From NCBI GenBank assembly GCA_024639405.1, contig JAHEIL010000005.1:1-48565 (forward strand): 48,565 nucleotides of DNA. Reading direction: 5' to 3'. How positions within the stretch are numbered: position 1 is the stretch's first letter; the number at the start of each line of letters is the position of its first letter. Position numbers and translations under genes: made by a program. Under the pieces are notes generated by a model. The model searched no databases. It was not told the origin of the DNA and saw nothing but the letters and a program-made list of their open reading frames with translations. The DNA is from Crocinitomicaceae bacterium. GTDB taxonomy: Bacteria; Bacteroidota; Bacteroidia; Flavobacteriales_D; Crocinitomicaceae. Below are positions 5,410 through 42,292 of this stretch, one piece after another.

Positions 5410-5517
5410 ATCGATGAATTTAATGTGTAAAAATAAGTAAATAATTTTGAGGTTTAATTTTTATTAAAAGTCATGATTTTTTTATACATTCGTTTAACAA
5501 ACTTATTACTATTACTT

Positions 5518-7242
5518 ATGAAAAAACATTTACTTTTTATTTTTATTTTAAGTGGTTTCAAATTGTTCGCCCAATTACCTTCGAATGTTTCTCCTGTTGG
5601 ACTAGTTGCATGGTATGGTTTAAATGGCAATGTCAATGATGCTTCGGTTAATGGAAATCATTGTACCAATTATGGCGCGACTTTAACTACCGATCGCAAT
5701 GGAAATGCAAATTCAGCCTATGCTTTTGATGGTGTAAGCAATTATTTAGAGCGCACAACCCCTTCCTATACCTTCTCCCAAACAGGCAATTTTTCGTTTT
5801 CAATTTGGGTAAAAAAAGCTTCTGCAAACGCTGGAATAATGATGATGAGTGGAACAGGAACATCAGGCGTCTTTATATGGTTATTGCAAGGTAACGCAAC
5901 AGGTACGTCATATTTTGGAACCAACATGCAACAATCAGCTTGGATTTGGTCAACTTGTCCCTATTCACTTTCTCAATGGGAACATTATGTAGGCGTTTAT
6001 ACTGGTTCAAATGGGCTTATGAAATTGTATAAAAACGGGGTTTTTCAATCTTCTGCAACCTACACTTATACTTCAGCAACTGCTTCAGCAATTCCACTTT
6101 TCATTGGAAAAGGTATTTCAAGTAACAATTTCCATGGTGATTTAGATGATATCGGTATCTGGAACCGTGCCTTAACACAATGTGAAATTACAGATTTGTA
6201 TGCTGGCACAACAACTGTTTTACCAGTTAATGCGGGTATAGACCAAACTATTTGTGCCGGGCAATCGGTTACATTGACAGCAACAGGCGCTACAACATAT
6301 ACGTGGAATAATTGGGTAGTTAATACTGTCGCGTTTACACCAAACATTACAAAAACGTATACGGTAAATGGAACAGATGCGAATGGTTGTAAAGGAACTG
6401 ATCAAGTTGTTGTAACCGTCAATCAGCCGTTAATCAATGCGGGTGCAGATCAAACCATTTGTACGGGCCAACAAGCTACATTAACAGCAACAGGCGCTAC
6501 TTCATACACATGGACGTCAGGTATTACCAACTCAACTCCATTTACCCCAACTGCAACACAAACGTATACAGTTTCAGGTACAGATGTCAATGGTTGTTCG
6601 GGTAGCGATGCTGTGACCGTTTCCTTGGTTGCACAGCCAACTGTTAATGCTGGTCAAAATATTTCTGTTTGCGCAGGTGATTCCGTTCAATTGAATGCAA
6701 CAGGCGCTTCAACCTATGTGTGGAGTTCTGGCACACAAAATGGTGGTTACTTCACTCCCGCTGCATCACAAACCTTGCAAGTAATTGGTTCTGCAGGTGG
6801 GGCATGTACAGATACAGATGATTTACAAATTACAGTGAATCAAGGTAGTGCTAGTACACAAACTATTACAGGATTGAATTCACTGACTTTAAACGGGCAA
6901 ACGTTTACCACTTCAGGAACCTACACCCAAGTAATTCCAAACCAAGCAGGATGTGATAGTACAATTACCTTGAATTTAACCATGAATTATACAGGTATTG
7001 AAGAAGGAAATACTGCATCGGTCTCAGTTTATCCGAATCCTATTGCTTCAAGTATACATGTTCAACTACCAACAGAATTAGTTGGGAATAAGTTTGTGAT
7101 TTATTCTGCTGATGGTGTGTTGATCTTGAATGGTTTATTTACAAAAATTGAAAATGAAATTGATGTAGCTAAATTTGCTAGTGGTTCATATTACATTCAA
7201 ATTGAACACCTTAAAACACCATTTAAACTGATAAAATTATAA
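5518..7242 (+). CDS. Secreted LamG-domain protein with Ig-like repeats and T9SS sorting domain
   Basis: An upstream ATG (5473) exists, but ATG 5518 starts a clean signal peptide (MKKHLLFIFILSGFKLFAQ), giving 574 residues. Residues about 30-215 form a LamG/concanavalin-like jelly roll (LVAWYGLNGNVNDAS, AYAFDGVSNYLERT, GDLDDIGIWNRALT), often a carbohydrate-binding fold. Three repeats follow, each starting like VNAGxDQTICxGQ and containing LTATGATTYTW, of the Ig/PKD-like type common in Bacteroidota surface proteins. The C-terminal 65 residues (VSVYPNP to KLIKL) are a type A T9SS sorting domain. The protein is probably exported to the surface or medium as an adhesin or sugar binder; no catalytic domain is seen. 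Confidence 0.88.
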   Translation: MKKHLLFIFILSGFKLFAQLPSNVSPVGLVAWYGLNGNVNDASVNGNHCTNYGATLTTDRNGNANSAYAFDGVSNYLERTTPSYTFSQTGNFSFSIWVKKASANAGIMMMSGTGTSGVFIWLLQGNATGTSYFGTNMQQSAWIWSTCPYSLSQWEHYVGVYTGSNGLMKLYKNGVFQSSATYTYTSATASAIPLFIGKGISSNNFHGDLDDIGIWNRALTQCEITDLYAGTTTVLPVNAGIDQTICAGQSVTLTATGATTYTWNNWVVNTVAFTPNITKTYTVNGTDANGCKGTDQVVVTVNQPLINAGADQTICTGQQATLTATGATSYTWTSGITNSTPFTPTATQTYTVSGTDVNGCSGSDAVTVSLVAQPTVNAGQNISVCAGDSVQLNATGASTYVWSSGTQNGGYFTPAASQTLQVIGSAGGACTDTDDLQITVNQGSASTQTITGLNSLTLNGQTFTTSGTYTQVIPNQAGCDSTITLNLTMNYTGIEEGNTASVSVYPNPIASSIHVQLPTELVGNKFVIYSADGVLILNGLFTKIENEIDVAKFASGSYYIQIEHLKTPFKLIKL

Positions 7243-7960: not shown

Positions 7961-9589
7961 TTAAAACCCAACTAATTTCCCTGTAAAGCTCGTTTTCTCA
8001 CCTTTAATGGTATAAACTAAAAATTGCTCAGATAAGATTGGTTTCCAAGTAATTTCAATGTTCTCATTGCTCGGTTGTATGGTTTGCGTATGAACTATTT
8101 TACCCTCCAATGTTGCAATACTCAACGTAACAGCTTCTTTCAATTGCTCAAATTTAAAATTAACTTGCTCCGAGTAAGGGTTTGGATAAACACTAATAGA
8201 AGCTCCTTCGGCATCTAATTCTTCTGTTGCTAAAAAATCTGACGCATCTAATTCTACCATCCAGAAATCGTAACTTCCTTTTGAATAAATTGTTTTATTA
8301 CCTGAAAATGTGGATTGTGAATTAGCTTCAAGAACTAATTTAGAAGGATTATTATTAATGGTTTTAACAATGCCATCTTCATCTTTAAACCCGCCAAAAG
8401 CTTTTTGAATAACTATAGAACCATTATTTTCATTTAATATCAAAACCCAAATATCCGTTACACCATAATTTGTTTGTGTTTTATTACCGCTAAAATTAGA
8501 GTTACTATTACCAGAAATGATCAGCTTATTCCACTCACTAAATTCAATATGTTGTGGAATTTCATTTTTATTTCCACCATATGTTTGATCCCAGATAATA
8601 TTCAAATTTTCATCTGTTTTTATTACCCAATAATCATTACAAAAAGCACTATTTTGACAACCTCTATTTATTGCAGTTTTGTTCCCGCCAACTTCAACGC
8701 CAGATTCAACAATGAAATAAAATGCATTGTTTGCCATTGCTAAACCACCAAAATTACCAGATTCTCCGCCGCTTCCAAAACATTTATCAGTTAGTTTTGT
8801 GTAATTTTGATCGAGGGTAACGACCCACATATTTTTGGCTCCAAAACCTGCATCCGTTTTATCTCCACTTTGACCATAGTTTGAACCACCTTTAATTATT
8901 ATTTTGTTTGTGGATGTTAAATAGACATTGTTAAAGCGTTCGTCATTAACAGAACCAATTGATTTTTGATGTATTATTGCGCCATTTAGTGGATTAATTT
9001 CAACCAACCAAAAGTCAAAACCACCAACCTTATGACTTGTCTTATTTCCGATTTGAGTCGAAGAATCTGATTTACTTAAACCAGCTAATAACAAATTGCC
9101 ATTCGGTAGGGCTAGAATTTTAGACAAATAATCATCTTGATTTCCACCGTATTGTTTTTGCCATAAAATGTTTCCATTTGTATCAAGAGCAACTAACCAA
9201 CCATCATATCCACCAAAACTACTCATTGTTTTTTCGCCAGAAACACTCGATTTTGATGAGCCCAAACAATAGAGAATAGTATCTTTAACGAATAAGTCGG
9301 AGCCTAGATCATCAAGTGAACCACCAATTGTTTTGTCCCATAAAAAGTTGTTTGTAGCATCTGTTTTTACGATCCAAAAATCGTTTCCTCCTCTTGGGTC
9401 TTCGCCCTTATCAAATGAAGCATTAGAATTGGAATAGCCAAACAAATAATTTACATTCAAATTTGTATCTATAAATCTTTTTAAATAATCATTCCCTGTA
9501 CCTCCAAAACCTTTTTGCCCTAAATCAACGAATTGACCGAATACCAAGCTTGCTGTTAATGCAAAATAAAGTGCTGTTAGTTTTTTCAT
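7961..9589 (-). CDS. T9SS cargo protein, predicted seven-bladed beta-propeller (array copy 1)
   Basis: A 542-residue protein. The signal peptide is MKKLTALYFALTASLVFGQ. The body contains seven tryptophan strands (FWIV, GWLV, FWLV, MWVV, YWVI, IWVL, FWMV) about 60 residues apart, alternating with GGxxDD turns and SGxKT loops, which fits a seven-bladed propeller. The C-terminal 75 residues, from ISVYPNP to GKLVGF, are a type A T9SS sorting domain. It is probably exported and cell-surface attached or released. The ligand is unknown and no enzyme motif is seen. It is the last of four paralogues, 18 bases after the previous one, and lies just before the shared terminator. Confidence 0.85.
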   Translation of the reverse strand: MKKLTALYFALTASLVFGQFVDLGQKGFGGTGNDYLKRFIDTNLNVNYLFGYSNSNASFDKGEDPRGGNDFWIVKTDATNNFLWDKTIGGSLDDLGSDLFVKDTILYCLGSSKSSVSGEKTMSSFGGYDGWLVALDTNGNILWQKQYGGNQDDYLSKILALPNGNLLLAGLSKSDSSTQIGNKTSHKVGGFDFWLVEINPLNGAIIHQKSIGSVNDERFNNVYLTSTNKIIIKGGSNYGQSGDKTDAGFGAKNMWVVTLDQNYTKLTDKCFGSGGESGNFGGLAMANNAFYFIVESGVEVGGNKTAINRGCQNSAFCNDYWVIKTDENLNIIWDQTYGGNKNEIPQHIEFSEWNKLIISGNSNSNFSGNKTQTNYGVTDIWVLILNENNGSIVIQKAFGGFKDEDGIVKTINNNPSKLVLEANSQSTFSGNKTIYSKGSYDFWMVELDASDFLATEELDAEGASISVYPNPYSEQVNFKFEQLKEAVTLSIATLEGKIVHTQTIQPSNENIEITWKPILSEQFLVYTIKGEKTSFTGKLVGF

Positions 9590-9607
9590 AGAAATAAATT
9601 ATTTACA

Positions 9608-11251
9608 TTAAATTCCTACTACTTTACCTGTGAAATTGATTTTCTCGCCTTTGATAGAATAAATCAAGAACTGTTCGTGTGGTGTTTTCCAGTTGATTTC
9701 AATGGAATCTAAAACTGGTTGAATGGTTTGTGTGTGCAACACTTTGCCATCTAAGCTTGTGATGCTTAAAGTTACCATTTCCTTTACTTGCTCCAATTTA
9801 AAGTTCAATTGATCTGAAAAAGGATTCGGATAAACGCTAATTGTGGCACCAGCTGCATCTAATTCTTCTGTAGCTAAATAATTTGAAGCATCGAGTTCCA
9901 CCATCCAAAAATCGTTACCGCCTTTTGAATAAACAGTTTTATTGCCGGAAATGGTGGATTCAGATGAGCCTTCAATAATTAATTTTGATGAATCATTTTT
10001 ATTTACTTTTACTGTACCAGATTCATCAGATGTTCCTCCGTACGTTTTCTGTGTTACAATTGTTCCATCTATTTCGTTAATAATTAAAAACCAATTATCA
10101 AATCCACCATATTGTTGAGTTGTTTTGTTGCCACTTTCTTCACTATTACTAATTCCCGAAAGAATTAGCTTGTCCGAAGTGAAAAAAGAAATATTTGCAG
10201 GATAATCATTGTTATTTCCACCAAAAGACTGGTCCCAAATGATGTTCAAGTTGGTATCTGTTTTTACGACCCAATAATCCGAACAATTATTTGAGTTTAT
10301 GCATCCTCTATTGGGTGCTGTTTTGTTTCCGCCAATGCCAGTACGTGAGTCTACTGCAAAATAAAAAGCACTGTCTGTTAATAACATACTACCTGAACCC
10401 CCTTCGCCTCCACTACCAAAACATTTATCGTTTAATTTATTCAGATTCTGATCCAATGTGATAACCCACATGTTTGTTGAAATTCCTCCTGAATTTGGTG
10501 AAGTGTAACCGAAGTCTGTTTTATCCCCAGATAAACCACACCATGCTCCTCCTTTGATAATTATTTTAGTTGACGCCGTAATCTTAACATCATTTATTAT
10601 ATCGTCAGCAAAAGTTCCAATCGTTTTCTGCTGTACTATAGCACCGTCAGTTGGGTTAATTTCAACCAACCAAAAATCTTGATTCCCTATATTAGGGCTA
10701 GTTTTATTACCAATCGTAGAAGATGGTGTGGATTCACTTGTACCAATTAATAAAATGTTGCCATTATTTAGAATTACATATTTTCTTAAATAGTCATTAT
10801 GATTTCCACCGTATTGTTTTTGCCAAAGAAGCGTGCCATTTGTGTCTAACACAACTAACCACCAATCAAAACCAGCAAAACTATTCATTGTTTTTTCTCC
10901 TGAAATAGAGGATCTTGAATTACCTAAAATGTAAATTTTACTATCGAGAAAAAAGCATTCTGAAGTATAGTCACTCAGATCTCCGCCAATTGTTTTATCC
11001 CATATTTTTTGATCGTTTTCATCCAATTTTATAATCCAAATGTCATTTTCACCCCTTGAGTTTTCACTTTTATCAAACGAAACGTTGGAATATGAATGAC
11101 CAACTAAATAGGAAGAATTATTCAAGGTGTCTTCATATCGAATTAAATAGTCATCTCCCGAACCCCCAATAACTTTTTGCCCTAAATCAACAAATTGTCC
11201 GAACACCAAGCTGGCAGTCAGTAAAAAATAAAGTGTAGTTAGCTTTTTCAT
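9608..11251 (-). CDS. T9SS cargo protein, predicted seven-bladed beta-propeller (array copy 2)
   Basis: A 547-residue paralogue with signal peptide MKKLTTLYFLLTASLVFGQ. Its seven W strands are IWII, WWLV, FWLV, MWVI, YWVV, NWFL and FWMV, and it ends in a sorting domain (ISVYPNP to GKVVGI). The loops between strands differ from the neighbours while the W strands and GGN/GGS turns are kept, as expected if the scaffold is fixed and the surface varies. The first 41 bases of the gene belong to a 392-base block repeated exactly one gene upstream. The 66-base gap before it holds a hairpin. Confidence 0.85.
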   Translation of the reverse strand: MKKLTTLYFLLTASLVFGQFVDLGQKVIGGSGDDYLIRYEDTLNNSSYLVGHSYSNVSFDKSENSRGENDIWIIKLDENDQKIWDKTIGGDLSDYTSECFFLDSKIYILGNSRSSISGEKTMNSFAGFDWWLVVLDTNGTLLWQKQYGGNHNDYLRKYVILNNGNILLIGTSESTPSSTIGNKTSPNIGNQDFWLVEINPTDGAIVQQKTIGTFADDIINDVKITASTKIIIKGGAWCGLSGDKTDFGYTSPNSGGISTNMWVITLDQNLNKLNDKCFGSGGEGGSGSMLLTDSAFYFAVDSRTGIGGNKTAPNRGCINSNNCSDYWVVKTDTNLNIIWDQSFGGNNNDYPANISFFTSDKLILSGISNSEESGNKTTQQYGGFDNWFLIINEIDGTIVTQKTYGGTSDESGTVKVNKNDSSKLIIEGSSESTISGNKTVYSKGGNDFWMVELDASNYLATEELDAAGATISVYPNPFSDQLNFKLEQVKEMVTLSITSLDGKVLHTQTIQPVLDSIEINWKTPHEQFLIYSIKGEKINFTGKVVGI

Positions 11252-11602
11252 GTTTGTTTTGTATTAAGCCACACCTTGAAAAATGTGTGGCTGGTTGATA
11301 AATTATTTTAGAATTGTTTACATGCCAACCAACTTACCTGTATAATTGATTTTCTCTCCTTTAATAGAATATATGAAAAACTGTTCGTTAGGTGCTTGCC
11401 AATTTATTTCTATTGAATTACTTGTAGGTTGAAGCGTTTGTGCGTGTATCACTTTACCATCTAATGTTGTGATGCTCAACGTAACTGCTTCTTTTAATTG
11501 TTCAAATTTAAACGTTAATTGATCTTTAAACGGATTTGGATAAACGCTAATAGCTGTGCCCTCAGCATCTAATGCTTCTGTAGCTAAAAAATCTGATGCA
11601 TC
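11211..11602. repeat. 392-base direct repeat, copy A
   Basis: Read by eye, this block is identical to 12903-13294 (offset 1692). It covers the first 41 bases of array copy 2, the 66-base intergenic region with its hairpin, and the last 285 bases (94 codons plus stop) of array copy 3. Identity stops at 11210/12902 (G versus A) and at 11603/13295 (C versus T). Confidence 0.9.
11267..11292 (-). other. Intergenic hairpin upstream of array copy 2
   Basis: AGCCACAC (11267-11274) pairs with GTGTGGCT (11285-11292) around a 10-base loop. There is no T tract on the downstream side, so it is not a standard terminator. It could be an RNA stabiliser or processing site in a polycistronic message. Confidence 0.6.
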
Positions 11603-12943
11603 CAGCTCAACCATCCAGAAATCATCCCCTCCGTGGTTTACGGTGGTTTTGTTGCCTGAAACGCCTGATTTTGAATTACCTTCTAATCTTAATTTTGTTG
11701 GATCGTTTTTGTTGATGTATAGAGACCCGTCTTCACTTCCTGAACCTCCGAATGATTGTTGAGTTACTATTGAACCATTTGTTTCATCTATAATTAACAT
11801 CCAAAGATCTTGAAAACCTAAACTTGCAGTTGTTTTATTACCCCCTATTCCAGTTCTACTGGAACCAGAGATTATTAATTTATTCCATTCTCCAAATTCA
11901 ATTTTTGATGGAATATCTTCTCGATTACCACCATACGATTGATCCCAAATGATGTTTAAATTAGTATCTGTTTTAACCACCCAATAATCTTGACAACTTC
12001 CTAAACTTAAACATCCTCTAAGTGGTGCGGTTTTGTTTCCTCCTGCATTAGACTGTGATGAAACAACAAAATAATAAGCATCATTTTTAACGATTAAATC
12101 ACCAGATGTACCTTCTCCACCACTACCAAAACATTTATCAATTAATTTATTTAAATTCAAATCTAAGATCACAACCCACATATTTGAATTTCCAAATCCA
12201 GGGTCAGTTAAATCACCATTTAAATTTCTATCACTAGCATATGCTTTGACAATGATTTTTCCAGATTGTGTAATGATTAACGTAGTAAAAATTTCAATAC
12301 CAGAAGAACCAATTGAAACCTGTTTAATAATTGAACCGTTATTAGGATTTATTTCCAACATCCAAATATCCAAGCCTCCTTTATTTGTACTTGTTTTGTT
12401 ACCAACGGTTAATGATGATGGGGAATCACTTGAACCGCCTAATAAAAGATTTCCATTGGGCAAAATATTTATCGTATTTAAGTAATCATCAAGAACGCCA
12501 CCATATTGCTGTTGCCACAATAAGTTTCCATTTGTATCAATAACTACTAGCCACCCATCATTTAAGCCAAATCCATCCACTGTTTTTTCTCCTGAAATTG
12601 GAGAGGTGGATTTTCCAAGTATGTAGATTTTATTATTCATTATTCTACAATCTATTCCACCATCTTCTCCAGATCCCCCAATTGTTTTATCCCACAAAAA
12701 GTTGTTTACTGAATCTGTTTTCACGATCCAAATGTCGTTCCCACCTCTCGAATCTTCACCCTTGTCAAAAGATGCGTTTGAATTGGAAGAACCGATGTAA
12801 TAAAATGCGTGGTTAACAGTATCCTCATATCGTGTCAAAAAATCATCACCTGTTCCACCAAAACCTTTTTGGCCTAAATCAACAAATTGTCCGAACACCA
12901 AACTGGCAGTCAGTAAAAAATAAAGTGTAGTTAGCTTTTTCAT
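11318..12943 (-). CDS. T9SS cargo protein, predicted seven-bladed beta-propeller (array copy 3)
   Basis: A 541-residue paralogue. Its signal peptide is identical to that of copy 2. It has seven W strands (IWIV, GWLV, IWML, MWVV, YWVV, LWML, FWMV) and a sorting domain ending GKLVGM. The last 94 residues are identical to those of the gene upstream (13010-14617), at the nucleotide level too, although the propellers differ widely. This points to recent gene conversion or unequal crossover at the sorting domain. A cysteine pair (RGCLSLGSCQDYW) in blade five is shared with copies 1 and 2 but missing from copy 4. Confidence 0.85.
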   Translation of the reverse strand: MKKLTTLYFLLTASLVFGQFVDLGQKGFGGTGDDFLTRYEDTVNHAFYYIGSSNSNASFDKGEDSRGGNDIWIVKTDSVNNFLWDKTIGGSGEDGGIDCRIMNNKIYILGKSTSPISGEKTVDGFGLNDGWLVVIDTNGNLLWQQQYGGVLDDYLNTINILPNGNLLLGGSSDSPSSLTVGNKTSTNKGGLDIWMLEINPNNGSIIKQVSIGSSGIEIFTTLIITQSGKIIVKAYASDRNLNGDLTDPGFGNSNMWVVILDLNLNKLIDKCFGSGGEGTSGDLIVKNDAYYFVVSSQSNAGGNKTAPLRGCLSLGSCQDYWVVKTDTNLNIIWDQSYGGNREDIPSKIEFGEWNKLIISGSSRTGIGGNKTTASLGFQDLWMLIIDETNGSIVTQQSFGGSGSEDGSLYINKNDPTKLRLEGNSKSGVSGNKTTVNHGGDDFWMVELDASDFLATEALDAEGTAISVYPNPFKDQLTFKFEQLKEAVTLSITTLDGKVIHAQTLQPTSNSIEINWQAPNEQFFIYSIKGEKINYTGKLVGM

Positions 12944-13294
12944 GTTTGTTTTGTATTAAGCCACACCTTGAAAAATGTGTGGCTGGTTGATAAATTATTT
13001 TAGAATTGTTTACATGCCAACCAACTTACCTGTATAATTGATTTTCTCTCCTTTAATAGAATATATGAAAAACTGTTCGTTAGGTGCTTGCCAATTTATT
13101 TCTATTGAATTACTTGTAGGTTGAAGCGTTTGTGCGTGTATCACTTTACCATCTAATGTTGTGATGCTCAACGTAACTGCTTCTTTTAATTGTTCAAATT
13201 TAAACGTTAATTGATCTTTAAACGGATTTGGATAAACGCTAATAGCTGTGCCCTCAGCATCTAATGCTTCTGTAGCTAAAAAATCTGATGCATC
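12903..13294. repeat. 392-base direct repeat, copy B
   Basis: Second copy of the block at 11211-11602. It covers the start of array copy 3, the intergenic hairpin and the sorting-domain end of array copy 4. Confidence 0.9.
12959..12984 (-). other. Intergenic hairpin upstream of array copy 3
   Basis: Same sequence and position relative to the genes as 11267-11292, within the identical 392-base repeat. Confidence 0.6.
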
Positions 13295-14617
13295 TAAATC
13301 TACCATCCAGAAATCGTAACCGCCATGGTTTACGGTGGTTTTATTCCAAGAATTGTTTGATTGACTGCTTGATTCTAGGAATAATCTTGTTTCATTTTTA
13401 GCCGATTTCTTGACAATACCTAAATCAATAGAATTGCCCCCAAAAGTTTCTTGATAAATGATAGAACCATTATTTTCGTTTAGTACTAATACCCAAATGT
13501 CATTTAAACCATGATTAGGTGTTGTTTTATTGCCGCTGATACTTGATTGACTATTACCTGAAACAACCAGTTTATTCCATTCAGCGTGAAATAAATGGTA
13601 GCTATAATCAGAAAGACTACCACCATACGATTGATCCCAAATAATATTTAAATTGGCGTCTGTTTTTATTACCCAATAATCATAAGACCCTCTATTGGGA
13701 GCAGTTTTATTCCCCAAAACACCACTAGATGTCGTCACTGAGAAATAAAAAGCGTCATTTGTAAACGTTACTCCGCCAGTAAAACCTACCTCGTTACCTC
13801 CGCCAAAACATTTATCTTGCAAAATGTTTAATTGTTGATCGAGGACAACTACCCACATATTTTGAGCTCCAAAACCTGGATCTGTTTTGTCACCACTTGT
13901 TCCTGCTAATGCTCCACCTTTTATTATAATTTTATTATTTGCAGTTAAGCATATTTCATTGAATGTTTCGTCATTTTCTGATCCAATTGTCTTTTGTTGA
14001 ACGATTTCTCCATTCAATGGATTAATTTCAACTAACCAAAAATCATCACCCCCTATATTTGGACTAGTTTTGTTCCCAATCGTTGAGGAAGGCAATGACT
14101 TACTCAATCCACCTAATAATAGATTACCATTAGATAAATAAATCATTGAATTTAAAAAATCATTCAATGCGCCACCATATTGTTTTTGCCATAAGATGTT
14201 GCCATCTAAATTCAATACTATCAGCCATACGTCATATTCGCCAAAGGAATCCATTGATTTTTCACCTGAAATTGATGATGTAGAATTTCCAAGTATATAG
14301 ATTTTATCGTTTATTATCATACAATTTCTTCCGTTATCTTCTCCAGATCCCCCAATTGTTTTATCCCATAAAAAATTATTGGCTGAATCTGTTTTCACAA
14401 TCCAAATGTCATTTCCGCCTCTCGAATCCTCTCCCTTATCAAAAGATGCGTTTGAATTGGAAGAACCAACATAATAATTAGTGTTGTGAACAGTGTCTTC
14501 GTACCGTTTCAAAAAATCATCACCTGTTCCACCAAAGCCTTTTTGCCCTAAATCAACAAATTGTCCGAATACCAAGCTTGCTGCAATAATAAAATATAAT
14601 GTAGTTAGTTTTTTCAT
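13010..14617 (-). CDS. T9SS cargo protein, predicted seven-bladed beta-propeller (array copy 4)
   Basis: A 535-residue paralogue with signal peptide MKKLTTLYFIIAASLVFGQ. The W strands are IWIV, VWLI, FWLV, MWVV, YWVI, IWVL and FWMV. The sorting domain is identical to that of copy 3. It lacks the RGC...C insertion of blade five seen in the other three copies (here NRGSYDYWVIK). It is the first of the four paralogues in the direction of transcription and follows the poly-C gene by 51 bases, with a long hairpin in that gap. Confidence 0.85.
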   Translation of the reverse strand: MKKLTTLYFIIAASLVFGQFVDLGQKGFGGTGDDFLKRYEDTVHNTNYYVGSSNSNASFDKGEDSRGGNDIWIVKTDSANNFLWDKTIGGSGEDNGRNCMIINDKIYILGNSTSSISGEKSMDSFGEYDVWLIVLNLDGNILWQKQYGGALNDFLNSMIYLSNGNLLLGGLSKSLPSSTIGNKTSPNIGGDDFWLVEINPLNGEIVQQKTIGSENDETFNEICLTANNKIIIKGGALAGTSGDKTDPGFGAQNMWVVVLDQQLNILQDKCFGGGNEVGFTGGVTFTNDAFYFSVTTSSGVLGNKTAPNRGSYDYWVIKTDANLNIIWDQSYGGSLSDYSYHLFHAEWNKLVVSGNSQSSISGNKTTPNHGLNDIWVLVLNENNGSIIYQETFGGNSIDLGIVKKSAKNETRLFLESSSQSNNSWNKTTVNHGGYDFWMVDLDASDFLATEALDAEGTAISVYPNPFKDQLTFKFEQLKEAVTLSITTLDGKVIHAQTLQPTSNSIEINWQAPNEQFFIYSIKGEKINYTGKLVGM

Positions 14618-14632
14618 GGTTGTTTTGTATTA

Positions 14633-14658
14633 AGCCACACATTTTTCAATGTGTGGCT
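14633..14658 (-). other. Intergenic hairpin upstream of array copy 4
   Basis: AGCCACACATT (14633-14643) pairs with AATGTGTGGCT (14648-14658), an 11-bp stem with a 4-base loop. The outer 8 pairs equal those of the two downstream hairpins, but the loop has changed so that the stem is longer. It has no T tract. Confidence 0.65.
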
Positions 14659-14668
14659 GGTTGATAGT

Positions 14669-16325
14669 TTATTTTAGAATTGTTTGTTGAATGTTAGAAC
14701 CATCTGAGAATAGTAAATTCAAACGTAATTGATTATATGCTACATTTGCAGTTGAAACAGCAATTTTCTTATTCAAATTTTCTCCTTTCTTCATATCAAT
14801 TTGCTCCGAATGAATCAATGCTCCAGCTAAATCTATGATTTCTAACTTAAATCGTACATTGTCTAATGCATTCAAATCCAAATTAATGAGATTGTTTTCA
14901 ATTTTATTGGGTGAAATTTTAACTTCAACTTTTTCATTATTTGAAACAATTTTATCAGGGAAATTTAGTTCGGTTACAATTGGAATTATTGTCCCATCAC
15001 TAAAAATAAACGCTACATTGTATAAGCCATTTTTTAATCCTTGAGATCTGTAATGATAGATTGCTCCTTTTTCATCAATTACTAATTGAAAATTTGCCGC
15101 ATCTTCATCAAGTGAACTAATTGGACTCACATCAATAGCAGTTATTCTTGGTTTTGTTTCAATTGGTTTGTCTGTAATTGGTTTTATTAAATCATCAACA
15201 GTGTATGGTTTATCAGTTATTACATAAGGGGATACTCCAAAAACCTCGAAACAATGTAACCATCCTTCAGAATTCCATACATTATTAAATATACAATCTG
15301 AAAAAGTGTTAAAATTTAAATAATCTATGCTTCCTAATTCAACATGTGGTAAATTAGGAACAAATGCTTTACACTCTAAATCGGTTGTATTCGTTACATT
15401 ATACCCCATAAATGAAGCTATAGAAGCTGGTGAAAAGTCATTTGGACCTGTATATGAATTATAAAAACCAAGCCATGCGTACATAGGAGAAGTACAATAA
15501 TTCAAGTTTGGGGATGCGTTCGCATCTATTCCCTCCATATGTGAGTATTTATTTGTCTTCTTTTCTACTAACATGCCTGTATTAACATACATATCATTCT
15601 TATCCTTTCTCATAAGACCATTCCCTTGATAACCTAAAGGTAATGGTATTTTTTTATACTTTGGAACTCCTGTTGAAGGATTGAATTCTTTATAAGGGTG
15701 ACTTGCAGGTAATGCATTCCAGTCTCCAATTTTAATAGCTTCGTAATATGGGATAACATAAACTACAACACCTGTTGGATTTGTTATTTGATAAGTACTA
15801 TCATTAGTACTTTCCATTGTCATATAATTTTGATTATCAATTGGATTCGTATAAATTGACAATTGATAAGCATAATCGGGTCCATTGCATTTCTTAAAAC
15901 AAATCAAATCTGCACTAACTCCATTTGCTCCTTCATCATCTCCAGAGCCAATGCTGCCACTTTTATACTTACTGTCTACAGGAGTTTTCTCACCTGTTAG
16001 CAATGTATTTCCATTTAGTTGGTTAAGGGCAATTAATTCATAGTACATATTTTTACCTGCTAATACCTCGTTTGGTAACTTCAAATAGTTTTTATTGGAG
16101 TTAAACGATGTTGAAAAAATAAAAGTACTGCCCATTTTCTTGAAAATGTTTACTTTATAAACTGCATTTGGCACTTCCTTCCAATATAAATAGCCTTGAG
16201 AAGTTGTTGGCTGAATTGCCGAAACAAACGTTGTGGCTTCTAAACTTGGGGGGGGGGGGGGGGGATTGCGTAAATCCACTTAAAGCAAGGCACAATGCCG
16301 TTGCTGATAAGAATAGTGGTTTCAT
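14669..16325 (-). CDS. Secreted T9SS-type protein whose signal peptide is out of frame at a poly-C tract
   Basis: The long open frame (14669-16279) could start only at an internal ATG (MDLRN) directly before a proline run, with no signal peptide. In another frame, ATG 16325 gives a clean signal peptide, MKPLFLSATALCLALSGFTQ, which runs into the same tract of 17 C. As read, the signal-peptide frame continues as SPPPPPKFRSHN and stops about 30 codons later. With 16 or 19 C it would continue in frame as SPPPPPSLEATTF. The body has no recognised domain, and a sorting-domain-like region ends the protein (VKISPNK to QQTILK). The gene is either phase variable and shown in the off state, or the tract was miscounted. 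It is the first gene of the cargo array. Confidence 0.7.
16248..16264 (-). repeat. Homopolymer tract of 17 C (G on the plus strand)
   Basis: Seventeen consecutive G on the plus strand lie at the junction of the signal peptide and the mature protein of the 14669-16325 gene. In such AT-rich DNA this length is not expected by chance. Such tracts slip during replication and could switch the reading frame. Confidence 0.9.
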
Positions 16326-16522: not shown

Positions 16523-16555
16523 ATGTTGTTGTTTGTCTATATTTTTTGCGTGCTT

Positions 16556-16588
16556 CTAGCCGGAACACATTTGACTTGCGTCGGATTT
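16556..16588 (-). pseudogene. Relic copy of the nrdA C-terminus
   Basis: On the minus strand this stretch reads KSDASQMCSG plus stop, matching the true nrdA end ([10 protein letters not shown] plus stop) 61 bases upstream. The plus-strand 18-mer at 16553-16570 (CTTCTAGCCGGAACACAT) recurs exactly at 16614-16631. The relic is not in frame with nrdA, and the first cysteine of the C-terminal pair has become serine. Confidence 0.6.
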
Positions 16589-16616
16589 AGTACCGCCTAT
16601 AACCACTAGCGTTCTT

Positions 16617-18983
16617 CTAGCCGGAACACATCTCACATGAGTCTGGATTTTCTAAAGAGCAGGCGATTGCGGCAGCGTCGTCTTCTAACGATTTAGCGCT
16701 CACTGCAGGCTCTTCTACAACCGTTTTGTCAACAGTGAATTTAATCGCATCTGTCGCTGCTTTTGTACGTAAATAGTACATTCCTGTTTTCAATCCTTTT
16801 TCCCAGCCGTAGAAATGCATCGATGTTAATTTACCAAAATTGGCATTCTCCATGAAAATATTCAACGATTGAGATTGACAAATGTATGCTCCACGATCAG
16901 CAGCTTGGTCGATAATTGCTTTTTGAGAAATTTCCCACGCTGTTTTGTATAAATCTTTTAAGCGTTGTGGAATTTCACTGATGTTTTGAATCGAACCATT
17001 CGCTGTCATGATTTTTTGACGCACATCTTTGTTCCATAAACCTTCACGCACTAAGTCTTTCAATAAGTGTTTGTTTACGATAATGAACTCACCTGATAAT
17101 ACACGTCGCGAATAAATATTCGAAGTATATGGTTCAAAACATTCGTTGTTTCCTAATATCTGAGCCGTTGAAGCAGTTGGCATTGGTGCTAACAATAATG
17201 AATTACGAACACCATGTTTAATTACTTCTTCACGTAATACGTTCCATTCCCAACGATCTGTTGGCGTTACGTTCCACATATCAAATTGGAAAATTCCTTT
17301 TGAAACTGGAGAACCAGCATATGTTTCGTAAGGACCTAATTCTTTTGATAAGTCTTTAGATGCAGACATCGAAGCATAGTAAATTGTTTCGAAAATCTCT
17401 CTGTTTAACGCACGAGCTTCTTCAGACTCAAACGGTAAACCCATTAAAATAAAAGCATCTGCTAAACCTTGCACACCTAATCCAATTGGACGGTGGCGCA
17501 TGTTTGAATTTTTCGCTTCTTCAACAGGGTAATAATTCTCATCGATGATTCTGTTCAAGTTCAACGTTGCTTGGTACGTTACTTCGAATAATTTATCGTG
17601 ATCAAATGTTCCGTTTTCAGTTACATATTTAGGTAAAGCCAAAGAAGCCAAGTTACAAACAGCCACCTCATCTGGGGCAGTGTACTCAATAATTTCTGTA
17701 CACAAGTTTGACGACTTGATGGTTCCTAAATTTTGTTGGTTAGATTTTGCATTTGCTGCATCTTTGTACAACATGTATGGCGTTCCTGTTTCAATTTGAG
17801 ATTCTAAGATTTTGAACCACAATTCTTGCGCTTTGATTGTTTTACGACCTTTACCAGCTTTTTCGTAGTCTGTATATAATTTCTCAAATTCAGCACTGTG
17901 CGTATCCGATAAACCTGGACATTCGTGCGGACACATTAAGGTCCAATCTCCATTTTCTTTTACACGTTTCATGAATAAATCTGGAATCCATAAAGCAAAG
18001 AACAAATCACGCGCACGTGCTTCTTCTTTTCCGTGATTCTTTTTCAAATCTAAGAAATCAAACACATCTGCATGCCAAGGTTCGATGTACATCGCAAAAG
18101 AACCTTTACGTTTTCCGCCACCTTGGTCAACGTAACGCGCCGTATCGTTGAAGACACGCAACATTGGAACAATACCATTTGAAGTACCATTTGTTCCTTT
18201 GATGTAGGATCCTGTCGCACGAACGTTGTGAATGGCTAAACCAATTCCACCAGCTGATTGAGAAATTTGGGCACATGATTTTAAGGTGTCATAAATTCCG
18301 CTAATGCTATCGTCTTTCATAGTTAACAAGAAACACGAAGACATTTGTGGTTTAGGCGTACCAGAATTGAACAATGTTGGGGTTGCATGTGTAAACCAAC
18401 CTTCCGACATTAAATTGTATGTTTTGATAGCAGACTGAACATCTGCTTTATGGATTCCAACAGCAACACGCATTAACATTTGTTGAGGGCGTTCAACAAT
18501 GATTCCATTTAATTTCATTAAATAAGAACGTGTTAACGTTTTAAATCCAAAATAATCGTAACGGAAATCACGGTCGTAAATGATACTTGAATCTAGCAAA
18601 TCACGATTTTCAACAATGATATTGTACACATCATCTGCAACCAAAGATGCATTTTGACCTGTTTTAGGATCAATGTAGTGGTGCATATCGTCAATTACTT
18701 CCGAAAACGTTTTCTTTGTTTCTTTGTGTAAGTTTGATACTGCAATACGAGAAGCTAAAAGGGCATAATCAGGATGATCAATTGTTTTTGCTGCGGCAAC
18801 TTCTGCTGCTAGATTATCTAAAACAGTTGTTGTTACACCATCATAAATCCCTTCGATAACCTTCATTGCAACGGCTTCAGGAGAAACCAACGGATCCAAT
18901 CCGTAACACATTTTTACAATTCGAGCTGTGATTTTATCGAATTTTACGGCCTCTTTTCTACCGTCTCGTTTTACTACATACAT
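16617..18983 (-). CDS. nrdA: Ribonucleoside-diphosphate reductase, alpha subunit (class Ia)
   Basis: This 788-residue protein is the catalytic subunit that reduces ribonucleoside diphosphates for DNA synthesis. An ATP-cone occupies about residues 1-90 ([18 protein letters not shown]), the dATP/ATP activity switch. Cys217 (MSSCFLL) and Cys443 ([10 protein letters not shown]) form the reducible pair, and N426-x-C428-x-E430 (NLCTE) is the radical and acid-base site. The C-terminal CEMCSG is the swinging thiol pair reloaded by thioredoxin. It follows nrdB by 49 bases in one operon. A degenerate second copy of the last codons lies just downstream. Confidence 0.97.
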
Positions 18984-22766: not shown

Positions 22767-22795
22767 AAAGGGACATTAACGTGTCCCTTTTTTTA
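22767..22795 (+). terminator. Terminator of the bacilliredoxin gene
   Basis: AAAGGGACA (22767-22775) pairs with TGTCCCTTT (22782-22790), followed by T residues. The right arm lies inside the last codons (KKGTR) of the convergent pigment gene ending at 22776, so one sequence serves both. Confidence 0.85.
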
Positions 22796-23828
22796 TAAGT
22801 ATAAATCCGTGTCGAATACCATCAAAATGATTGTAAATCAAAATATTGTTACAATTTGTTGGGAAATCAGTGTTAAATGCAGGATGTGCTCCATTAATTT
22901 TTCCAGTAAGAATTTGTACGCCTAAATAGGTTGCAAATCCTGAAATGGTACGGTAATCACCGGTTAATTGCTTAAAATTAATAGCAGGTGTTTCAGGGAA
23001 TATTTGTTGAAAATCGTCGTACCAATAGTCTAATCTATTGTCGCCATTTTTTCCTAATAGCAACAAATCAATTGCATCCATTGAGAGTTGATTTTTTTCA
23101 AAAAAAACATTCATTAAAGTTGTTAAATCAGCTGTTGATGGATGGATAATTTGTGTCGTGTCTACAATTTCAGCAATGGCATGTTCAGGGCTATTCGAAA
23201 GCAGGAAAAAACTTGCTCCTTCGCCACAAACACTGCCTTCAGTATTTGACTGAATTAATTGGTCGTTACTTATAATTTCTTTTTTATAGCGCCCTGCTAG
23301 TAAATCAATGTGATAGTTATAAGAAGAAATTTCTTCAACAGAACCTACTAATAACGATGTTATATTGGTTGAAGCTTCAAAGAATAATTTTGCATCAATG
23401 AGTGCATTTTCAAAAGACAAAGATCCGTTTACATGTGTTGAATTATACCCTGTGTTTTTTGTCATTAAAGCTAACTGCCCTGCCAATGCGTTGGGTGTAC
23501 TTTGTACAAAATTTGTAGGAGTTAAAACTCCTTCATCGTACGCTACAATTTGATTTAAAAAATCAATGCAATTTTCTAATCCACCATTTGCAGTGCCAAC
23601 AATGATACCATCTAATTGTTGGTTTCTATTAATGATTGGAAGCGCTGCAGCAATACCCATTTTAACAGCTTTACCCATTCTTCTTAATAAATTAAGCGGG
23701 ATAAACTCAGAATAGGTTGGTTCAACAATTGGAAAAGTAGAAGTTAAGTATGTTGAATATTCGCCTTTTTCAAAAGATAAATCATGTGTTTTTTGAGCTG
23801 AAATTGCCTGTTGATCAATTACATACAT
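22776..23828 (-). CDS. Chain-length-factor-like ketosynthase partner (third gene of distal module)
   Basis: This protein has 350 residues from ATG 23828, which overlaps the ketosynthase stop by 10 bases; a longer frame to 23852 is less likely. The fold is ketosynthase-like with the family motif TPTNFVQSTPNALAGQLAL. The nucleophile position reads STHVNGSLSFENAL, so the active cysteine is missing, as in chain-length factors of type II polyketide and aryl polyene systems. It should pair with the ketosynthase directly upstream and help set chain length. It is the last gene of the pigment cluster, and its end is shared with the bacilliredoxin terminator. Confidence 0.8.
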   Translation of the reverse strand: MYVIDQQAISAQKTHDLSFEKGEYSTYLTSTFPIVEPTYSEFIPLNLLRRMGKAVKMGIAAALPIINRNQQLDGIIVGTANGGLENCIDFLNQIVAYDEGVLTPTNFVQSTPNALAGQLALMTKNTGYNSTHVNGSLSFENALIDAKLFFEASTNITSLLVGSVEEISSYNYHIDLLAGRYKKEIISNDQLIQSNTEGSVCGEGASFFLLSNSPEHAIAEIVDTTQIIHPSTADLTTLMNVFFEKNQLSMDAIDLLLLGKNGDNRLDYWYDDFQQIFPETPAINFKQLTGDYRTISGFATYLGVQILTGKINGAHPAFNTDFPTNCNNILIYNHFDGIRHGFILIKKGTR

Positions 23829-25018
23829 TTTGAAAAAATTAAAGAGGTACAATTTCCGCCAAATCCAAAAGAATTAGACATTATGTATTGTATTGGCTGC
23901 TGCTTACAATAGGATTGAATCGGTTGAAATGGAAAAGTATGTATCGGAGCCTGACAATTTAAACTTGGATACAATTCATTATTTTCCATGCTTAATATTG
24001 AAAAGACTGCCTCCAATGCTCCAGAAGCCGCTAATGTGTGACCCGTATACGATTTTGTAGAATTATAGGGAGGTGGGTTGTTCTCAAAAACAGTAGCAAA
24101 TGCAGTTGATTCAGTTTCGTCATTATTGATTGTGCCCGTTCCATGCGCGTTGATATAATTGATAGCATTGGCAGAGATGCCTGCAACTTGAAGGGCTTTT
24201 TGCATGGCCAAAACCGGTCCTACAGCATCCTGTGATGTTGCTGAAGGATGAAAAGCATCATTTGAGTTACCAAACCCAATAACTTCAGCATATTTTTTTT
24301 TCTTATTAGCACTTGCTTCATTTTCAAGTACCAAATAAGCGCCTGCTTCACCAAGATTCAACCCTTTTCTATCTGTTGAAAAAGGAGCACAAGCTTCATC
24401 ACTTAAAATCATTAATGCATTAAATCCATTCACCGTATATTTTGCAAGACTGTCCGCGCCGCCAACAATTACACGATCTAATCGACCACTTTGAATCAAT
24501 CTTGCTCCTAATAATATTGCATTTGCCGAAGAAGAACATGCAGTATTTATTGTATCCGTGTAACCCTTAATGTTGTAACGACTAGCAATTTGAAAGGTGT
24601 GATCAGATGCTTCATAAGATCGAACAAATTCAGAAGCTTCACCATGTAAATTTGCATCTTTATATAATTCATCCGTGTAGCACATTCCGCCAACAGTTGA
24701 AGCAGAAATAAATCCTGTTGTAAAAGAAGAAAGTACTTCCTCTGATAAATTGGCTGAAGTAATAGCTTGTTGAAATGCTGCCAAAGCAATTAAAGAAGTG
24801 CGGGTTAAGCCACTATTTTTGGGAGAATTCGTCAAATTAATAAATTCCTCATCATTAAGAGGGATTTCACCAAAAAGTAAAGAATTAACATAATTAGATT
24901 TGAAAAAACGCGCTTTTTTGATACCAGATGTACCATTTATCAATGATGATCTAGCTTCTAAAGTTGAATTTCCGATGGCAGATATTGCTCCAAATCCTGT
25001 AACAAATACCTTTGACAT
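23819..25018 (-). CDS. Beta-ketoacyl-ACP synthase (KAS II type), distal module
   Basis: This 399-residue protein should perform decarboxylative Claisen condensation in chain extension. All catalytic residues are visible: Cys161 (NTACSSS), His292 (NAHGTGT), Lys322 (STKSYTG) and His327 (GHTLAASG), with the C-terminal NSFGFGGN loop. It lies 2 bases after the ACP and overlaps the cysteine-less partner, an ACP-KS-CLF order that recurs at 34309-36654. The two ketosynthases share long motifs such as ARLIQSGxLDRVIVGG. It may make the acyl chains for the resorcinol half or extend the polyene; the sequence does not decide. Confidence 0.88.
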   Translation of the reverse strand: MSKVFVTGFGAISAIGNSTLEARSSLINGTSGIKKARFFKSNYVNSLLFGEIPLNDEEFINLTNSPKNSGLTRTSLIALAAFQQAITSANLSEEVLSSFTTGFISASTVGGMCYTDELYKDANLHGEASEFVRSYEASDHTFQIASRYNIKGYTDTINTACSSSANAILLGARLIQSGRLDRVIVGGADSLAKYTVNGFNALMILSDEACAPFSTDRKGLNLGEAGAYLVLENEASANKKKKYAEVIGFGNSNDAFHPSATSQDAVGPVLAMQKALQVAGISANAINYINAHGTGTINNDETESTAFATVFENNPPPYNSTKSYTGHTLAASGALEAVFSILSMENNELYPSLNCQAPIHTFPFQPIQSYCKQQPIQYIMSNSFGFGGNCTSLIFSKCM

Positions 25019-40287: not shown

Positions 40288-41511
40288 TTATAGTTTAAAT
40301 TTTTTGATAATTAACGATGAATTTGTACCTCCAAAACCAAATGAATTGGATAAAAAACAATCAATTTTTGCTTCACGAAACTCAGGTACAATATTTATTT
40401 TCGATGAATCTTCATCAGGGTTTTCAAAATTAATATTTGGTGCAATAAAATCATTGTGCATCATCAATAATGAATAAACAACTTCACTTGCACCTGCCAT
40501 CCAACATTCATGTCCTGTCATACTTTTTGTTGAACTAACAGGAATTTTTGATCCCAAAACACCTGCAATTACTTGTGCTTCTGTTGTGTCTCCAACAGGG
40601 GTTGATGTGGCATGAGCATTGATGTAATCAATATCATTTGGTGTTAATCCAGCCTGCTTCATCGACATTGTCAAGGATCGATATTGGCCGTCAAAATTAG
40701 GGTTTGAAATATGATCGCCATTGGAAGAGAAACCATATCCAACAATTTCCCCGTATATTTTGGCATTTCGTTTCAATGCCGATTCTAAGGATTCGATAAT
40801 AATTGTAGCTGAGCCACCAGAAGGAACCAAACCATCACGATCGCGATCGAATGGTCGGCTTGCTTTGTGCGGCGCGTCATGGCGAATGGAAAATGTTCCT
40901 AATCCGTCAAAACTGCCCATTGCATAAATGTTTATTTCTTGTGCGCCTCCACAAATTACTCGTTCTTGTAAGCCTTGTTTTATCAATAAGTAACCCATTC
41001 CAATAGAATGAGAACCTGAAGCACAAGCTGCAGACATTGTTAAATTGATGCCTTTCAATTTATAAATCGTAGATAAATTCATGTTTACCGTACAATTCAT
41101 ATTTTGAAAAATATCACCACTTCCAATCAGTGTTGTATCTTTTCGTTGACGTGCTTTGTCAATAGTTTCGACGACAGCTCCTGCTGTAGAATCGTTCCCA
41201 AAAATAATTCCAGTTTCATTATTCTCAAAGAAATCTGCATCCAAACCAGCCATTTCAACAGCTTCTTTTGTTGACATGTATGCAAACATTGCAGGTTGAT
41301 GCATTCCAATACGTTCTCTTCGCGATAAAAAGGGTTTTAAATCTGGATCTTTTACAAAACCAGTTAAACAGGATCTATAACCAAATTCTTTTCTCGGCTC
41401 ATCATAGATTATTCCGCTTTTACCCTCTTTTAAAGAAGTTAAAACTTCAGGAATAGATTCACCGATGCTTGAATAAATACCGATCCCTGTGATTACAACT
41501 CTGTGTTCCAT
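40288..41511 (-). CDS. Beta-ketoacyl-ACP synthase (KAS I/II type)
   Basis: This 407-residue condensing enzyme has a full active site: Cys163 (SAACASGS), His300 (NAHATSTPVGD), Lys329 (STKSMTG) and His334 (GHECWMAGASE). Its ECWMAGA segment and length set it apart from the three other KAS II types here and resemble the aryl polyene starter or main ketosynthases. It lies 2 bases after the FabG-like gene, and with the following ACP it forms the main elongation block. Confidence 0.9.
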   Translation of the reverse strand: MEHRVVITGIGIYSSIGESIPEVLTSLKEGKSGIIYDEPRKEFGYRSCLTGFVKDPDLKPFLSRRERIGMHQPAMFAYMSTKEAVEMAGLDADFFENNETGIIFGNDSTAGAVVETIDKARQRKDTTLIGSGDIFQNMNCTVNMNLSTIYKLKGINLTMSAACASGSHSIGMGYLLIKQGLQERVICGGAQEINIYAMGSFDGLGTFSIRHDAPHKASRPFDRDRDGLVPSGGSATIIIESLESALKRNAKIYGEIVGYGFSSNGDHISNPNFDGQYRSLTMSMKQAGLTPNDIDYINAHATSTPVGDTTEAQVIAGVLGSKIPVSSTKSMTGHECWMAGASEVVYSLLMMHNDFIAPNINFENPDEDSSKINIVPEFREAKIDCFLSNSFGFGGTNSSLIIKKFKL

Positions 41512-41513
41512 AA

Positions 41514-42245
41514 TTAAGCGTAAATTCCACCATTAATATTAATGACTTCACCTGTAATATATGCGGCCTTAGGTGAGGCAATAAAACTCACCAAGTCAGC
41601 GACTTCTTGAGGAGTACCAAAACGATTGGCTGGCACCATTTTCTTCAATTCATCGATGGGTAAATCGCTCGTCATATCCGAAAGAATAAACCCAGGAGCA
41701 ACAGCATTCACCGTAATATTTCGTTTTGCCACTTCTTGCGATAATGCTTTCGTAGCAGCAATCATTCCTCCTTTTGCAGCAGAATAATTTGTTTGACCTG
41801 GAACACCTTTCAATCCACTTAAAGAAGCGACATTGATAATTCTACCTGAGCGATTTCGCAACATTTTTTGAAGAACAGCTTGTGTACAATTGTACATTCC
41901 TTTCAGCGAAGTATTGATGACATCGTCCCAATCATTTTCACTTACCCATGGAAATAAATTATCACGTGTAATTCCAGCGTTGTTTACCAACACCTCTATT
42001 TTATTTTCAGGATTATTAGTGAACCATTGTTGCATTTTATCCTGCACTTCTTGATTGTTTTTAACATCAAATTGCATTAATTCTGCTGAACCACCATTTG
42101 CCTCAATTTCAGACTTTGTTGCTTCAGCTGCTGCTTGATTGGCGGTGTAATTTATGATAATATGTAAGCCATGATCTAACGACAATTGAATAGCAATTGC
42201 CTTTCCCAACCCTCTTGATGCTCCTGTAACCAATGCGCTTTTCAT
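41514..42245 (-). CDS. 3-oxoacyl-ACP reductase, FabG-like SDR
   Basis: A 243-residue protein. The NADPH-binding TGASRGLGKAIA lies at about 7-18 and NNAG at 88-91. The catalytic Ser141, Tyr154 and Lys158 (NYSAAKGG) keep the 13-residue Ser-Tyr spacing of FabG. It reduces 3-oxoacyl-ACP to 3-hydroxyacyl-ACP before dehydration in polyene synthesis. It lies 2 bases before the ketosynthase and 47 bases after the ammonia-lyase. Confidence 0.92.
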   Translation of the reverse strand: MKSALVTGASRGLGKAIAIQLSLDHGLHIIINYTANQAAAEATKSEIEANGGSAELMQFDVKNNQEVQDKMQQWFTNNPENKIEVLVNNAGITRDNLFPWVSENDWDDVINTSLKGMYNCTQAVLQKMLRNRSGRIINVASLSGLKGVPGQTNYSAAKGGMIAATKALSQEVAKRNITVNAVAPGFILSDMTSDLPIDELKKMVPANRFGTPQEVADLVSFIASPKAAYITGEVININGGIYA

Positions 42246-42292
42246 TTCTTTTAAATCAGAGATTAAAATTGTGTTAAATTCAAATGTATAAA

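Follow-up and report, generated by a model that had tools for sequence, protein, structure and literature searches.

A poly-C tract behind a predicted signal peptide as a candidate slipped-strand switch of a secreted protein family in Crocinitomicaceae

Switching at the cell surface through slippage at repeats has been described mostly in host-associated Proteobacteria and in some spirochaetes, and the Bacteroidota are known for DNA inversion. Bacteroides surface genes, for instance, have invertible promoters that are turned around by recombinases. The homopolymer of pilC in the pathogenic Neisseria sits in the signal-peptide region of the gene, and the opa repeats of Neisseria also lie in the coding region of the signal peptide. 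Slippage at pilC is said to have been shown experimentally by Jonsson in 1991. In the lic genes of Haemophilus, the tandem repeats are preceded by several start codons that lie in different frames. Ornithobacterium hominis belongs to the Flavobacteriales.

According to the excerpts available, the pilC run is a G tract of 9-20 that is classed as genic, and the opa repeat is CTTCT in 7-21 copies (PMC5953494). A poly-C run is described in the opc promoter in the available part of another source (PMC3960869). For the FSD adhesin genes of O. hominis, the accessible passage refers to a "putative phase variation mechanism" and leaves its nature unstated (PMC13183296). The searchable text of the 2019 O. 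hominis genome paper (PMC6421346) contained no mention of phase variation, and the accessible part of the O. hominis genome report places the species in the Flavobacteriaceae. Switching of type IX cargo by repeat slippage was not described in the titles or abstract openings of the papers listed from an open-licence library, a scope that mostly leaves subscription journals outside.

The window, which is the whole stretch of DNA analysed here, comprises 48,565 nucleotides of a Crocinitomicaceae genome (G000). The original prediction had placed a candidate poly-C phase switch of a type IX secretion (T9SS) cargo protein in this window. The features at the locus are as follows.

16265..16325, minus strand: start codon and signal-peptide coding sequence (MKPLFLSATALCLALSGFTQ), including the single T before the tract; predicted with a scripted hydrophobicity scan
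16248..16264, minus strand: C17 homopolymer at which slippage is proposed (plus strand: G17)
16155..16325, minus strand: short OFF-frame reading, MKPLFLSATALCLALSGFTQSPPPPPKFRS..., of 56 residues and a stop
14669..16246, minus strand: open body of 525 codons and a stop; member of the family in alignments A1 and A2; its tail is similar to type IX sorting domains

The minus strand from 16325 reads ATGAAACCACTATTC...GGATTTACGCAAT, then 17 C (16248-16264), and then AAGTTTAGAAGCC. The ATG at 16325 opens a signal peptide of 20 residues that ends in GFTQ, and one T lies between GFTQ and the C17. An N-terminal signal peptide is expected of a T9SS cargo protein, and this one was recognized by the scripted scan. 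The frames of the signal peptide and the body join when the C count leaves a remainder of 1 on division by 3. This reading confirmed the earlier frame arithmetic, in which 17 C behind the signal peptide leave it out of frame with the body and 16 or 19 C bring it into frame. The ATG frame also meets a stop about 30 codons beyond the C17, as had been predicted. If begun at a GTG inside the signal-peptide sequence, the body reading frame has 536 codons (14669-16279). The assembled window allele is OFF. In a draft assembly such as this one, the count of 17 C may be wrong by one; such an error would change the state of the window allele but not the case for a switch.

The gene pilC, which encodes a surface adhesion factor, resembles the window gene in having a homopolymer. 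It differs in that the protein is unrelated, the organism is a host-adapted Proteobacterium with no type IX pathway, and slippage has reportedly been observed by experiment. The opa repeats switch the frame of a surface protein, as the octamers of two relatives described below would, but they are pentamers in a gene for an outer-membrane barrel protein of unrelated sequence. The lic genes resemble one heptamer-bearing relative (G099_C164) in having tandem repeats behind several starts in different frames, but their repeats are tetramers in unrelated genes of the glycosyltransferase type. The O. hominis FSD adhesins belong to another protein family and a host-associated species. The invertible promoters of Bacteroides share the phylum and on/off surface expression with the candidate switch gene, but they work by recombinase inversion instead of slippage.

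The C17 tract is the sole G/C run of at least 8 bases in the 2.63-Mb genome (and the sole run of at least 9), and the next longest G/C run within the window is a C6. Runs of C13 or longer were present in 11 of the 240 genomes of the family Crocinitomicaceae. Of the 15 such runs listed, the one in the window is alone in adjoining a signal peptide, and several others lie at contig ends or N gaps. Across the genus, poly-C of at least 10 bases was found in 6 of 26 genomes.

The nearest orthologue, in G006 (also CANLIL010000005.1, a Flavobacteriales MAG), is 91% identical, in frame and without the tract. Only five C stand in succession at the tract position, and the signal-peptide counterpart is similar to the window's and in frame. 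In G025 (L061, about 10.2-10.4 kb), the switch gene is deleted; the leader and the last 21 codons are left and stand ahead of the same kind of downstream gene. Since G006 has no tract and G025 has no gene, the G000 tract is not an old feature of its genus. By themselves, the facts from G006 and G025 would speak for an artefact or for a recent accident. The original prediction had named an in-frame relative without a tract as the finding that would speak against a switch, and G006 is literally such a relative. It is not decisive, however, since tracts occupy this position in other relatives, and refutation on this ground was rejected after profile searches had revealed those tracts.

Over the first 100 codons of the body, G000 and G006 differ with a dS of 1.0-1.2 and a dN/dS of 0.09-0.15, and beyond these codons dS per 50 codons lies between 0 and 0.3. 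In this comparison (14669-16246 against L060 and L038), the two genes thus diverge strongly in the first 100 codons and are nearly identical over most of the remainder. The contrast in dS between G000 and G006 points to a recombination or gene-conversion block between two lineages. The gene pair adjoins what we take to be a lysine-tRNA-synthetase-like gene in G006 and G025, and in G000 it adjoins what we take to be ribonucleotide reductase genes. The ribonucleotide-reductase-like gene at 16617-18983 ends in ...MCSG and a stop, and 61 bases on GTGTTCCGGCTAGAAG occurs again, so that the end of this gene is duplicated on a small scale (16553-16629, minus strand). Ketoacyl synthases and an aromatic amino acid lyase were also seen in the window at 22776-25018 and 40288-43822, and they may belong to a pigment cluster of the aryl-polyene or flexirubin type.

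Profiles built from seven relatives (A1) and then from twenty (A2) were used to search genomes of the family (240), of the order (399), of a second family around G143 (114) and of the phylum (395). When the best three candidates per genome were considered, only 1 of the 395 genomes in the phylum sample matched at E 1e-8, and it was the window's own. The family searches considered the best 6 (240 genomes) or best 13 (114 genomes) candidates per genome, so the number of members is a lower bound. Readable 5' ends were found in at least 33 members from 23 genomes. The counts leave out G112, whose 5' end is cut by a contig end, fragments or broken copies in G146, G123, G036, G094 and G225, the fragment G054:C60, and weak matches that cover only the tail. 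Runs of A and T, such as the A8 at the G380 start and a T8 in G180, were not counted as tracts, and those genes are in frame. G313 and G117 share an identical body.

A G/C run of 7-17 bases lies inside or just behind the signal peptide in 10 of the 33 readable members. These runs are C17 in G000, G9 in G023, G10 in G085, G7 in G099_C87 and G8 in G034_C39; three genes of G143 have G10, G10 and G8, and two genes of G406 have G8 each. The run is behind the signal peptide in five members (G000, G023, G085, G143_C19b and G406_C80) and inside it in the other five. In three other members, an upstream ATG is separated from the signal peptide by tandem repeats, namely AAATCAAA in 3.9 copies (G099_C170), AAATCAAA in 4.0 copies (G034_C8) and AAAAATC in 4.9 copies (G099_C164). 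A slippable 5' coding repeat whose unit is not a multiple of three, which is a mark of a contingency locus, was thus present in the window gene as its C17 and in 12 of the 32 other readable relatives; 20 of the 33 members have no such repeat. Four tandem arrays were counted in 981 kb of overlapping loci (646,071 distinct 31-mers), three of them in the family, a count biased towards the family since the loci were chosen around it.

Three pairs of nearest relatives keep the run in place with another length (G10/G8, G10/G8 and G8/G7), each pair being of different species with one genome per species. The flanks differ too in all three pairs, so the length difference there is not due to slippage alone. 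The comparison of tract length that had been proposed, made here between species, gave a difference accompanied by changes in the flanks. The mono-run genes were also placed on a tree of 32 rows, which includes G112, omits two partial G054 copies and labels the ten mono-run genes only. The label needs 6 changes, with at least 5 forced by well-supported branches, and it is somewhat clustered, as 12 of 500 shuffles gave a number as low. Some of these changes may be losses.

Frame state was then compared between members with and without a repeat. The 13 repeat-bearing members comprise 10 that are out of frame, 2 that are in frame and 1 that is mixed, with starts in two frames; all 20 members without a repeat are in frame. 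Among the mono-run genes, the signal-peptide start is out of frame with the body in 8 of 10 and in frame in 2, and eight OFF genes in ten is the expectation under random phase. Both OFF phases occur, with six of the eight OFF genes in one and two in the other. The upstream ATG is out of frame in both octamer genes, and the heptamer gene, G099_C164, has ATGs both in and out of frame. Fisher's exact test of the 12 unambiguous repeat genes against the 20 others gave 1e-6, or 9e-5 after near relatives were collapsed, figures that serve as guides since relatives are not independent and the genomes are drafts. In four OFF genes (G143_C19a, G406_C356, G034_C39 and G143_C18), the body frame behind the run encodes the latter half of the signal peptide as far as its AQ end, which indicates that the two frames meet at the run.

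The 23 genomes that carry family members contain 140 G/C runs of at least 8 bases in 75.6 Mb (genome sizes rounded), from which 0.0088 such runs were expected in the first 120 bases of the 33 member genes. Nine were seen. The repeat is therefore far more common here than in the genome background, which is another mark of a contingency locus, and even 5 or 6 independent run events would still be very unlikely by chance. Outside the family there are 131 runs of at least 8 bases, and none of the 68 inspected (19 plus 49) breaks the frame of a signal-peptide start directly at the run. A general set of such switches in these genomes was rejected on the basis of these 68 runs. Three script flags were also rejected: the ATG flagged at L237 is a chance one within an open gene, and those at L242 and L261 are both in frame. 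L269 encodes a lipoprotein signal peptide with a G8, also in frame. Mid-gene frame breaks were seen in two large genes of the secreted or repeat type, at a C9 (L110 1502-1510, in G085) and at a G8 (L278 1241-1248, in G081), and these genes are possibly switchable too.

The recurrence of runs at the signal peptide in relatives makes the case for a switch much stronger than a single odd tract would, and it bears directly on the possibility that the window gene is always in frame and its homopolymer was misread by one base. A homopolymer of 17 bases is easily miscounted by one in a draft genome, and this draft consists of 52 contigs. Some of the other long C/G runs found in the family abut contig ends or N gaps, as noted above, and G006 is in frame without a tract. 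A miscount or assembly artefact leaves unexplained, however, the runs in the signal-peptide region of ten members. Several out-of-frame relatives have runs of only 8, a length that is rarely miscalled, and two have octamer arrays instead. Tails of miscalled G could not bridge the tract either, as we infer that the flanks would need C on one side and G on the other. An artefact is thus unlikely. Plain decay, by which the out-of-frame genes would be young pseudogenes and the run the mere site of the first frameshift, appears slightly less probable again. Loss does occur in the family, which includes a broken relative with internal stops in G036, other fragments, and the deleted gene in G025. By contrast, each of the ten out-of-frame members has a body that stays open over the matched length (one search match per body, without inner stops). 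G143_C19a and G406_C356 are both OFF and differ at 30% of amino-acid-changing sites with silent sites saturated, which also argues against decay, and decay does not predict three repeat kinds at one place. The dN/dS was 0.149 between G034_C39 (OFF) and G099_C87 (ON), and 0.174 between G000 and G006.

Slippage of the polymerase or the ribosome on the run during expression could also yield some full protein from a gene that is fixed out of frame. CCC runs can permit +1 shifts at a low rate, and slippage of this kind could add a leak on top of a genetic switch. As the common cause, though, programmed frameshifting is very improbable, because it needs one fixed phase and the out-of-frame relatives need shifts of both kinds, because two mono-run relatives are in frame without any shift, and because octamer arrays, which are not known shift signals, serve as well.

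The features downstream of the candidate switch gene, together with one further gene, are listed here.

14633..14658, minus strand: 11-bp hairpin (-17.5 kcal/mol, z -6.7, no T run) between the switch gene and downstream gene 1
13010..14617, minus strand: downstream gene 1, secreted repeat protein, sorting tail above cut-off
11318..12943, minus strand: downstream gene 2, paralogue, sorting tail above cut-off
9608..11251, minus strand: downstream gene 3, paralogue, sorting tail below cut-off
7961..9589, minus strand: downstream gene 4, paralogue, sorting tail below cut-off
5473-7242: gene with a type IX sorting tail above cut-off and a concanavalin-like lectin domain

The window protein itself had no match to a Pfam or NCBIfam model. 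Its relatives matched the sorting-domain models PF18962 (1 of 20) and TIGR04183 (5 of 20), and all of these matches were weak (E up to 0.1, best 0.0017). In hhalign, the tails of 11 family members aligned to those of 3 downstream paralogues with a probability of 83.8 and an E of 8e-6 over 49 columns. This resemblance suggests that type IX sorting of the family is likely, with scores below curated cut-offs, and that the window protein is probably type IX cargo, as had been predicted. A PDB search with the family profile returned only two marginal xylanase chains (E about 0.009), which were not used. The four downstream genes had also been called cargo genes, a description that the Pfam cut-off for the sorting tail upholds for two of them and not for the other two. 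The presence of type IX machinery in the window genome is implied only, through the sorting tails of downstream genes 1 and 2 and of the gene at 5473-7242.

The sequence of the hairpin at 14633-14658 is also present in L038 and L061, and inverted repeats of a similar kind can be seen by eye in the two gaps that follow. Because a hairpin lies in the first gap and similar repeats lie in the next two, the suggested polarity of the switch gene on the four downstream genes is doubtful. In G000, G006, G025, G023 and G085, between one and four related secreted repeat proteins follow the switch gene or what remains of it. These genes (7961-14617 in the window, and L060, L061, L062 and L063) represent a small conserved cassette at different chromosomal sites.

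We consider it probable (about 0.82), from the sequence evidence, that the tract is a contingency switch and that the secreted protein family undergoes slipped-strand phase variation. Slipped-strand mispairing in replication would add or remove C residues. In the ON phase, the signal peptide would be joined in frame to the body, and the protein would be exported and probably passed to the type IX system. The two OFF phases would give a short peptide and no export, and the window allele would have been sampled in an OFF phase. The original prediction is supported in part, namely for a slippable tract at the signal-peptide junction that would act as a phase switch, and this part gains from the recurrence in relatives; that tract length changes within a clone, and so within a strain, is what we infer. 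The protein would reach the surface, and the benefit would be a mixed population, either for escape from phage or grazers or for attachment.

Members of the family would have acquired slippable 5' repeats several times, as mono-C, mono-G, octamers and heptamers. The different repeats occur in separate lineages within the same approximately 100 bases around the signal peptide, and most sequenced repeat alleles are OFF. It is somewhat more plausible than otherwise that convergent evolution has kept a whole secreted surface family switchable in one order of the Bacteroidota. One uncharacterised secreted family thus shows the marks of slippage repeatedly and with several kinds of repeat. If this is true, replication slippage would be, beside DNA inversion, a regular route to surface heterogeneity in Bacteroidota. 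Natural flavobacterial populations may keep mixed surface states, which could be tested cheaply in existing reads and would have a bearing on phage resistance, grazing and attachment.
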